Assembly: GCF_029633865.1 (NCBI RefSeq)
Contig: NC_079214.1
Coordinates: 29,023,333-29,087,332, forward strand
Direction of reading: 5' to 3'
Length of the DNA: 64,000 nt
DNA from: Lampris incognitus
Taxonomy: Eukaryota; Chordata; Actinopteri; Lampriformes; Lampridae
Shown here piece by piece: positions 11,794-14,241 of this stretch (the first letter of the stretch is position 1; each line of letters opens with the position of its first letter). The translations under genes and the position numbers were made by a program. A model generated the notes under the pieces. That model did not search any database. It had not been told where the DNA came from and saw only the letters and a program-made list of their open reading frames with translations.

Positions 11794-14241
11794 TTAGTCT
11801 AGGAGCAAGGCGGGCCTCCGGACTGGCCAGCCCCGTCTGGTGGTGTACGGGAGATGGGACTCAGCGGCGTCGGCTTCGTCTCCTTCTGGGTCAGGGGCGT
11901 TGGACTGCCCACCCGGAGCACAGGCTGCTGTCCCACGACGTTGGGTGATTGTCGACTCGCCTGAAGAGTAGCTGGCAGCAGTGTGTTGGAGCGGCTGGAA
12001 CCGAGCCGGGGAGCCTGGTGTGCTGGGTCCTCCATCGTCGTTTGCGTGGAACAGGTCCTCCAGCCGGAGATCAAGGTCTTCATCGATCTCCTCCTGCTCT
12101 GTCACTCCTTCGTACTCCTCTGTTCTCTGCGCCCCCGGCTCCTCCATGTCAGCAGCGGGAGGACCTCCTTCAGGTGTTTCCTGCGGCCCTATGGCTGGTG
12201 CTGGAGCAGACAACAGAGCATGGCGCCTGTCATCTGTGCCCCAGATCTTCACCAGGCAGTCATCTGAGCCCGTGAAAATGCGTCGCCCGGTGCAGTCGAA
12301 GGTGACACAGTAGACAGAGGAGAGATGTCCCAGAATCCTCTTGTGCATCTTCATGTGCTGGTAGACAGCTGTAGGCAGTAGCTGGCGTAGACGGTAGGAG
12401 CCATTGAGCCGACGCCCATTGCTCGTCTCCACGATATTGGGTGGACTCCCATAGATAATAGGAGGCTCTGGGGGTCGTCCACAGTGCAGAGCAGCCAGCG
12501 CTGAGCCCTTCCACACAACATGCTTGCAGCTCTTGTTGGTACGCAGGAGGTTCTGCCTGCCGGCTCCCAGGATGCTGTGGAGACCAGGCACGCTGGCAGG
12601 AACCTCTTTCTCCAGCAGTGGACATACTCTAGAACACACTTGGAGTAGGTGGTCTGGGCTGATGTGCCTGTGCAACTTCACCTTGTTAATGTTGTCGATG
12701 CCACTGGCCAGGGTCTTGAGCTTGGGGGTGCTCATGCTGTCTCCTACCGGCGGAGGACTTGGAGAGCTATCGCGACGCCGCTCGTCTTCCCATGCTACTC
12801 GCTGGATTCTCCCTTTTCCTTCAACCTCTCGCCCCAGCGTCGCTTTAAAGTCATACTCGCGTGCCTCAGCCTTCCTGATTGCTTCAGCTAGTGTTTTGGG
12901 TTCTGCCCCCAGGACTTCATACGCGATGTTTTGGTTCTTCAGCCCGCGCAGAAAGGCTTCTGCAGCGTAGGCCTCCTGCAGTGTAACACCAACCTGCGGG
13001 TATGCCAGTGTGACAAGTCTCCTCACTTCCTCGCCAAACTCATAGAGGGTCATCTCTCTGGCCTGCTTAACCTTGCTGAGTTTACGGCGCGCAGTTCCCT
13101 CAGGCAGCTCTTTACCGTAGCGGCGGCGTAACTGGGTGATGAGCGCGTGGTAGTCATCTTTTATCGGAGCCGGCTGCGCGATGACAAAAGACATGGCGTT
13201 GTCCCTCAGTCGGAGATACAAGGCGTCCAAACAGGTCTCGTCGGTCCAGCCCCTCTTTCTCGCCATCCGTTCGAATGGTCCAACGAAACTATCCCAGTCA
13301 CCCTTACCATCAAAAGTGGCGAGGAGCTTGATGTCATTTTCGTGTCCTCGGTCGGGACCTTGTGAGCTTCGGTTGCCGCTCCGACTTTGAAGGTCTCCTG
13401 TCTGGCTCTGTTGACCTCTAGAGGAACCTGCCTGCCCTCCAACGCTGTCATCCAGCAGGTTTCGGCCGCCCCTGCTGTCCAGGGACATTTGGCCACCCTG
13501 CATCCCGTCGGGGGGTGGTACTGCAGTCGCTCCATTTTTTCCACCATGACCGATCGGAGTGCTGGTAAGTGGTGCGGGCTCACTGGGTCCATTTCCTGTA
13601 TAGCGCAGGGCTGCTGGGGCCGCTTTGCTGCTCGGCCTGGCTGGCGTCTCCTCATTGCGCCGGTCGCTCAAGTTAGCCACTGCGGCCATAGCTGCTGGCA
13701 ACAGGTGATCAGCGCCGTCTCGCTGTCTGGCCCCTGGGTTCTCCCGGGCCGGGGTGAACTGCGAGAGTAGGCTCATGTCTTGCACCGTTCTGCTAGTTCG
13801 TTCTCCGAGCACAGCCCCTGCCGACCCTACACCACTATCGCTTTGAGGGCTACTAGGAGAAACCCCTTGCTTCACTACTTGAGCGATGGGCGACAAACCG
13901 GGAGGCTCACCTTGGATATCTGAACGATGACGGGCCCAATCGGTGCGCTGAATGGGAGGTGTGGGGGGACGAGATCGCTTAGCCACCGCTTCCGCTAGTC
14001 CATCGATACGCGCTGTGAGGGCCTCCATCTGCATCTCTATCTGGCGTTGCATCTTAACCTGGGTCTGGCGTTCCATGTTTTCCATCTGGCGTTGCATCTG
14101 AACCTGGGTCTGGTTCATGGTTTCCATCTGCGCCAGGAGGAGCTTCATCCAGGCGTGCTCTCCGGGGTCTTCTGTCCCCACACCAGCACCATCCAGACTC
14201 AACTCAGACTGTTCTTTTACATTTTCTTTGTCCTGTGACAT
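11794..14241 (-). CDS. Gag-BRWD/PHIP fusion ORF, 815 aa
   Basis: One uninterrupted ORF. Residues 35-75 form a Gln/Met-rich coiled coil. Residues 90-300 are low-complexity Pro/Ser/Gly. Residues about 300-475 are a retrotransposon capsid domain (LLATFDGKGDWDSFVGPFE). Residues about 519-672 are not retroviral: they match the N-terminal region of BRWD/PHIP proteins, with TNKSCKHVVWKGSALAALHC, PTAVYQHMKMHKRILGHLSS and a complete first WD40 repeat ending GSDDCLVKIW. The last 140 residues are acidic and end RRGWPVRRPALLLD, like a pol C-terminal tail. No zinc knuckle, protease, RT or integrase remains. BRWD/PHIP proteins are nuclear chromatin and CUL4-adaptor factors. What the captured part does in the fusion is unknown. 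The element looks like a transducing retroelement. Confidence 0.88.
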   Translation of the reverse strand: MSQDKENVKEQSELSLDGAGVGTEDPGEHAWMKLLLAQMETMNQTQVQMQRQMENMERQTQVKMQRQIEMQMEALTARIDGLAEAVAKRSRPPTPPIQRTDWARHRSDIQGEPPGLSPIAQVVKQGVSPSSPQSDSGVGSAGAVLGERTSRTVQDMSLLSQFTPARENPGARQRDGADHLLPAAMAAVANLSDRRNEETPARPSSKAAPAALRYTGNGPSEPAPLTSTPIGHGGKNGATAVPPPDGMQGGQMSLDSRGGRNLLDDSVGGQAGSSRGQQSQTGDLQSRSGNRSSQGPDRGHENDIKLLATFDGKGDWDSFVGPFERMARKRGWTDETCLDALYLRLRDNAMSFVIAQPAPIKDDYHALITQLRRRYGKELPEGTARRKLSKVKQAREMTLYEFGEEVRRLVTLAYPQVGVTLQEAYAAEAFLRGLKNQNIAYEVLGAEPKTLAEAIRKAEAREYDFKATLGREVEGKGRIQRVAWEDERRRDSSPSPPPVGDSMSTPKLKTLASGIDNINKVKLHRHISPDHLLQVCSRVCPLLEKEVPASVPGLHSILGAGRQNLLRTNKSCKHVVWKGSALAALHCGRPPEPPIIYGSPPNIVETSNGRRLNGSYRLRQLLPTAVYQHMKMHKRILGHLSSVYCVTFDCTGRRIFTGSDDCLVKIWGTDDRRHALLSAPAPAIGPQETPEGGPPAADMEEPGAQRTEEYEGVTEQEEIDEDLDLRLEDLFHANDDGGPSTPGSPARFQPLQHTAASYSSGESTITQRRGTAACAPGGQSNAPDPEGDEADAAESHLPYTTRRGWPVRRPALLLD
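12226..12690 (-). other. Captured host segment: BRWD3/PHIP-like, intronless
   Basis: About 154 codons in frame with Gag. The vertebrate gene region encoding this stretch is split by introns, so an unbroken copy implies capture through RNA. Similarity looks strongest to BRWD3 (GRRLNGSYRLRQL), with PHIP next; this ranking is from memory. Only the first WD40 blade is present, so no propeller could form alone. Confidence 0.82.

Follow-up and report, generated by a model that had tools for sequence, protein, structure and literature searches.

The long terminal repeat (LTR) retroelement Bs1 of maize holds host segments, from a plasma-membrane H+-ATPase and two other sources, in a chimeric open reading frame (ORF) (PMC13317346, PMC5408686). 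In acute transforming retroviruses, host coding sequence forms part of the provirus, most of these viruses have lost viral coding sequence and need helpers, and the oncogene is captured by readthrough and splicing at the insertion (PMC4276931). In a third process, LTR-mediated retroposition (Tan et al. 2016 as cited in PMC5408686), template switching brings host mRNA into an LTR element; cases have been described from zebrafish, chicken, mosquito, and fly. We describe here an LTR element from a 64-kb stretch of the Lampris incognitus genome (the whole of the DNA analyzed, which we call the window) in which part of a host gene, phip, is joined in frame to Gag on one side and to the C terminus of Pol on the other. 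This is very probably a non-autonomous, host-gene-transducing Ty3/gypsy LTR retrotransposon that captured PHIP in frame and has spread recently.

Within the portions of these sources that bear on the comparison, Bs1 is the closest in kind to the fish chimera, since both have host gene segments in an internal chimeric ORF, and retroviral oncogene capture is the closest in mechanism. Bs1 is a plant element with three donors, whereas the fish chimera comes from an animal, draws on a single donor, is present in at least 55 copies, and keeps a pol tail in frame. Acute transforming retroviruses are infectious and tumor causing, while the chimera is a germline retrotransposon with many copies and no room for env. 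The cases of LTR-mediated retroposition are described as retrocopies, with no amplified family carrying an in-frame Gag fusion in the portion of that source concerned. Among the matches listed in the open-licence PMC literature, outside which most subscription papers lie, we found neither a vertebrate LTR element with PHIP nor an amplified vertebrate Ty3/gypsy element with a Gag-host fusion. The kind of element is therefore already known, from maize Bs1, and an amplified Ty3/gypsy case in a vertebrate is apparently new among the matches listed. As further background, the copy number of Bs1 is low, and Gag fusions are known among acute transforming retroviruses.

Structure of the Gag-PHIP-Pol chimera

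The window contains a complete LTR element on its minus strand, at positions 10918 to 15124, with the following features.

15121 to 15124, unstranded: target-site duplication GAAG, 5' side
14468 to 15120, minus strand: 5' LTR, 653 bp, with TG...CA ends
14449 to 14465, minus strand: primer-binding-site-like (PBS-like) sequence, 2 bases inside the 5' LTR, read directly from the letters
11794 to 14241, minus strand: fusion ORF of Gag, PHIP, and Pol tail, 815 codons, one open frame, of equal length in the 50 copies read
12682 to 14241, minus strand: Gag portion, residues 1 to 520, with the capsid domain at 345 to 435 and without a C-terminal zinc knuckle
12229 to 12681, minus strand: captured PHIP segment, residues 521 to 671, including the first WD40 repeat (636 to 667)
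11794 to 12228, minus strand: pol C-terminal tail, residues 672 to 815, in the pol frame
11575 to 11586, minus strand: purine-rich tract immediately before the 3' LTR
10922 to 11574, minus strand: 3' LTR, 653 bp, with 1 mismatch to the 5' LTR
10918 to 10921, unstranded: target-site duplication GAAG, 3' side

The PBS-like sequence is so called because TGG is the usual start of a PBS. An earlier note on this DNA, made from its letters, had proposed a single 815-codon ORF between two 653-bp LTRs, and the one open frame and the nearly identical LTRs agree with that description. In the window copy, 226 and 219 bases separate the fusion ORF from the LTRs and leave no room for env; two more ORFs in the same orientation, of 121 and 149 aa, overlap the fusion ORF in other frames and were outside the domain search. 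By the ORF list and a Pfam scan, the element has no reverse transcriptase (RT), RNase H, or integrase of its own, with only the C-terminal pol tail left, and it is therefore a non-autonomous derivative and not an autonomous member of Ty3/gypsy. The note had listed these enzymes, together with protease, as missing, and we found that the Gag zinc knuckle has been lost too; its remark that the host piece has no introns is true of the element itself. The LTR bounds and the purine tract rule out a processed pseudogene made by a long interspersed nuclear element (LINE), which would have a poly(A) tail and no LTRs.

The capsid domain predicted for the Gag portion is seen as a Retrotrans_gag match at residues 345 to 435 (E of 3.4e-4), with a score of 21.2 bits that falls under the Pfam cut-off of 24.1. 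When 8000 candidates were scored at E ≤ 0.001, the matches listed included one Gag relative, P0121 (504 aa), which itself exceeds the Retrotrans_gag cut-off (26.8 bits) and whose identity to the Gag of the chimera is 49% in the best-matching part and 38% when a longer part is taken. A CCHC zinc knuckle is present at residues 479 to 494 of P0121, and none is present in the chimera. Residues 506 to 520 of the fusion match the Gag linker of P0121 only loosely and have no match to the preceding PHIP exon, which rules them out as PHIP; we assign them to Gag by exclusion, and they may have a second source.

Of 1307 candidates in a search with the pol tail, 3 proteins reached E ≤ 1. P0122 carries RNase H, integrase, and the last part of RT (29.2 bits, slightly short of the cut-off of 29.6). 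Its alignment with the chimera starts at its residue ~798 (RRHALL), extends to its last residue, and has 52% identity overall, as expected from the earlier suggestion that the tail resembles a pol C terminus. The integrase p58-type domain of P0122 ends at residue 784, and the pol-end alignment of P0123 begins at the same point as that of P0122. Based on these alignments, in which the tail is 52 to 53% identical to the pol C terminus of its relatives, we assign residues 672 to 815 to the C terminus of Pol, beginning just past the integrase p58-type domain. The PHIP piece thus replaces the zinc knuckle, protease, RT, RNase H, and integrase core, and the Gag frame continues into that of Pol. This arrangement, in which one frame runs from Gag through host coding sequence into the Pol tail, supports the description of the locus as a transducing gypsy-type element.

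The Ty3/gypsy elements related to P0121 and P0122 resemble the chimera in Gag and in the pol tail and differ from it in that P0121 retains its zinc knuckle, P0122 retains the end of RT, RNase H, and integrase, and neither has PHIP. None of the relatives found (P0121, P0122, and P0123) covers both Gag and pol. The absence of a PHIP segment from the covered parts of P0121 (Gag) and of P0122 and P0123 (pol end) speaks against the segment being normal to the pol of this lineage, an explanation that, taken together with an assembly join, we give a vanishingly small probability.

Within the captured segment, a WD40 Pfam match at residues 636 to 667 scored 31.6 bits, above its cut-off of 27, and a BRWD1_N match at residues 521 to 543 scored 17.6 bits, under its cut-off of 27. 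A protein search with the whole ORF, whose candidates were limited to proteins 0.55 to 1.75 times the ORF in length, scored 8000 proteins, of which 166 reached E ≤ 0.001. Among the best 120 of these 166, the window copy was closest to fish PHIP, at 92 to 94% identity, and the BRWD3 and BRWD1 proteins came next, at ~58 to 68%; in another copy (L002), identity to Echeneis PHIP was 95.3% over 150 residues. By this comparison the donor is PHIP, and BRWD3 is ruled out as a donor that fits far less well. The PHIP hits also suggest a percomorph-like fish as the host. Thus, where the earlier note had placed a BRWD3/PHIP-type piece of ~154 residues at 519 to 672, PHIP and its first WD40 repeat stand, BRWD3 does not, and the limits become 521 to 671. 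Coverage of the ORF is at most 21% for every protein among the matches listed, which means that this Gag and PHIP are not joined in any of them.

Amplification of the chimera in the genome

We searched the genome (1.48 Gb in 537 contigs) with the 815-aa protein and scored 55 places of 1374 first-look candidates; these 55 places, and the 50 copies fetched from them, were picked by protein score, so that intact frames are favored in the counts that follow. Every one of the 55 matches residues 1 to 815 (one, 1 to 814) at 98 to 100% identity, and 42 have no internal stop. The ORF aligned over its full 2448 nt in all 50 fetched copies, with no internal stop in 39 and one in the other 11, in agreement with the earlier claim that the frame is open through the junctions. 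Two LTRs are present in 49 of the 50 (the match to the 5' LTR of L034 extends over just 370 bases, and that to the 5' LTR of L029 is truncated), and 45 of these 49 have identical 4-bp flanks, with L014, L016, L032, and L041 off by one base. By a manual count with no background control, 42 of 49 5'-side flanks have a central TA, which fits one integrase activity. The mean LTR divergence among the fetched copies is 0.45%, and a substitution rate of 3 to 8e-9 per site and year places the insertions at roughly 0.3 to 0.75 million years of age.

Identical residues form the 5' junction in 45 of the 50 copies and the 3' junction in 49 of the 50, with the remainder differing by one residue, and the flanks differ between copies except for L017 and L022. 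Since the junctions are common, the flanks differ, and LTRs and target duplications are present, the copies derive from one capture followed by a burst of retrotransposition with many separate integrations. Assembly error does not account for these data, which comprise 55 full-length matches at separate sites with common junctions. The genome therefore contains at least 55 chimeras, and the element that the earlier note had described as a single one is real at its locus but is a member of an amplified family; its proposed check for other copies with the same junctions found them recurring in the 50 copies read. Among the relatives and copies compared, none of the outcomes that had been named beforehand as speaking against the reading came up: the segment matches PHIP strongly, its junctions are found again across the genome, and the relatives have no PHIP segment in their covered parts. 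A 37-bp pattern from Gag (codons 498 to 510, ten codons ahead of the 5' junction) gave 202 genome-wide matches at ≤3 mismatches (89 forward and 113 reverse), compared to 0 for the reversed control, and perhaps ~200 copies is the upper reading at that tolerance.

The two copies with common flanks, L017 (C18:10.49 Mb) and L022 (C18:10.19 Mb), are probably a segmental duplication that followed insertion. We also observed length classes in the leader (positions 14242 to 14467 in the window copy), with 184 bases in 18 copies, 226 in 11, 193 in 9, 470 in 6, and five others, and LTRs of ~605 bases in most copies compared to 653 in the window copy; these differences indicate that several sublineages were probably active.

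Across 49 copies, the PHIP piece has 38 private variants and 1 shared variant in 450 bp, Gag has 202 private and 34 shared in 1560 bp, and the tail has 55 private and 6 shared in 435 bp. Private silent changes number 9 in the 450 bp of the PHIP piece, compared to 64 in 1560 bp of Gag and 17 in 435 bp of the tail, and the deficit of variants in the PHIP piece is also present at non-CpG sites, both comparisons being made without a significance test. Replacement and silent changes agree with a neutral model that uses the same mutation types in Gag, PHIP, and the tail, as expected for young insertions, and the copy comparison detected no purifying selection on the PHIP part. Because the shortage in the PHIP piece extends to silent variants, it is not explained by selection at the protein level. 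Most likely, PHIP is a passenger, and the chimera spread because its RNA is well packaged and copied.

The same data bear on three proposals in which the PHIP segment has a function. In the first, which we consider quite unlikely, the Gag-PHIP fusion is an active adaptor that co-assembles with the Gag of a partner element, while the N-terminal region and first WD blade of PHIP bind host factors (e.g., the CUL4-DDB1 ligase or chromatin) and provide a replication edge over the parent. The preservation of the frame across the two joins and in 39 of the 50 copies, the fewer variants in the PHIP piece than in the flanking parts, and the presence of at least 55 copies would all suit an adaptor, but the ratio of replacement to silent changes is at the neutral expectation in all three parts, the shortage of private silent changes means that protein selection is not the cause of the deficit, and a single WD blade cannot close a propeller. 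In addition, a structure model of the fragment was poor, with a predicted local distance difference test (pLDDT) score of 46, and was not used. It is also unlikely that the fusion of Gag, PHIP, and Pol tail is made, enters particles with partner Gag, and gains an edge from PHIP, which would make the chimera a satellite of its own family and the swap adaptive for the element. Finally, the PHIP segment might work as RNA, with small RNAs that match phip lowering phip expression or with the segment shielding the element from silencing by PIWI-interacting RNA (piRNA). There are many copies of one phip coding stretch, and the relevant part of one source provides a moth precedent for silencing RNAs from retrocopies (PMC9674220), but the Gag-side string occurs in both orientations (89 and 113), as by chance, and we regard this role as very unlikely.

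Route of capture and means of spread

The homology to PHIP starts at VKL(H/Y)RHIS, a motif present in 92 of the 124 PHIP/BRWD proteins compared. By eye, many PHIP/BRWD gene models without the preceding exon lose homology exactly before this V (e.g., P0001, P0013, P0015, P0022, P0024, P0025, P0028, P0035, and P0037), and gene models of other vertebrates begin an exon at the captured V (residue 521). In other gene models the break comes a few residues further on, ahead of the H, and we take it to reflect use of an AG within the exon. The Gag side of the 5' junction ends in ...AACAAG, and an AAG end is common at 5' splice sites. Together, the exon start at the captured V and the AACAAG end of Gag favor readthrough and splicing from Gag into phip, and this pattern suggests that the 5' capture occurred by readthrough from an element inserted in phip, with splicing to that exon.

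The phip locus of the same genome was matched exon by exon at C18:31.536-31.560 Mb. The match to the preceding phip exon stops at C18:31536367, near the start of the captured stretch, and the captured exons are absent from C18:31543000-31548700 (L051), which lies further downstream in phip. Matches to donor exons elsewhere in phip are 87 to 231 nt each and the captured stretch is 453 nt, so a single exon of 453 nt seems unlikely. The exon that encodes LLATLRGHAAEISDM..., the next after the captured stretch in PHIP, was matched in the paralogues on C10 and C11 and not in C18 phip (C18:31536367-31548471), a difference that a gap in the assembly, divergence of the exon, or its true loss might explain.

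The 5' junction could instead have formed within the particle, by template switching from element RNA to mature phip mRNA without splicing, an origin that is compatible with the rest of our interpretation and that we hold to be possible, though it is not the one we expect. The PHIP match that starts, by eye, at an exon start in many gene models and the AAG at the end of the Gag side, which is frequent at 5' splice sites, argue against template switching, and a random switch would rarely land on the base that starts an exon. In its favor, template switching is the general model for LTR-mediated capture in the part of the source that treats it (PMC5408686), and the 3' junction has no exon signal.

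Several points weigh against our account of capture and spread. The spliced origin of the 5' junction is read from the gene models of other species and from short matches elsewhere in phip. At the 3' junction, there was no sign of an exon border in 117 of 117 gene models, all of which run on normally, and a PHIP-phase splice pattern at the 3' end had zero matches in phip or its paralogues; as the count is zero in the paralogues too, the pattern itself may be wrong. The 202 genome-wide matches stop short of the junction, so that related elements lacking PHIP may be among them, and the 50 copies that we compared were chosen by a protein score that favors intact frames.

By the route of readthrough and splicing, a parent Ty3/gypsy element would have captured a stretch of the host phip transcript, with readthrough from an element in phip and a splice from Gag to the exon; at the 3' side, recombination would then have returned the sequence to the element. 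The 5' join places the Gag linker, ahead of the zinc knuckle, onto the start of a phip exon, and the 3' join lies just past the integrase p58-type domain and leaves the last 144 residues of Pol, with the frame kept at both joins, so that a fusion protein may be translated. The resulting chimera retains the LTRs, PBS-like site, leader, purine tract, and capsid domain, and the enzymes of a related intact element would copy and integrate its RNA in trans, giving a recent spread to at least 55 sites and perhaps ~200. We infer copying in trans from amplification without enzymes of its own, and the LTRs, PBS-like site, purine tract, and target duplications indicate that ordinary LTR machinery did the copying.

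Genomic setting and significance of the chimera

The window contains three other features with recognizable similarity. At 887 to 2195, on the minus strand, two overlapping ORFs of another retroelement have Gag-like (PNMA/Retrotrans_gag) and aspartyl-protease-like matches, all under curated cut-offs. Coding sequence at 20542 to 21099, on the minus strand, belongs to the C-terminal part of an ADP-dependent glucokinase-type gene (ADP_PFK_GK, E of 3e-58), and the chimera is located downstream of it in the same orientation. On the plus strand, at 25259 to 27450, two consecutive ORFs have the look of a LINE, with an RVT_1 domain in the first.

Capture of host genes by retroelements is usually seen as single relics, as infectious tumor viruses, or in plant elements such as Bs1. 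Here, a host coding segment fused to Gag has passed through at least dozens of germline retrotranspositions in an animal with its junctions fixed. Thus, a Ty3/gypsy element can spread without its zinc knuckle and nearly all of pol and with host coding sequence aboard, and, since the copies are young, its expression, its partner, and any effect on phip are testable in living animals.
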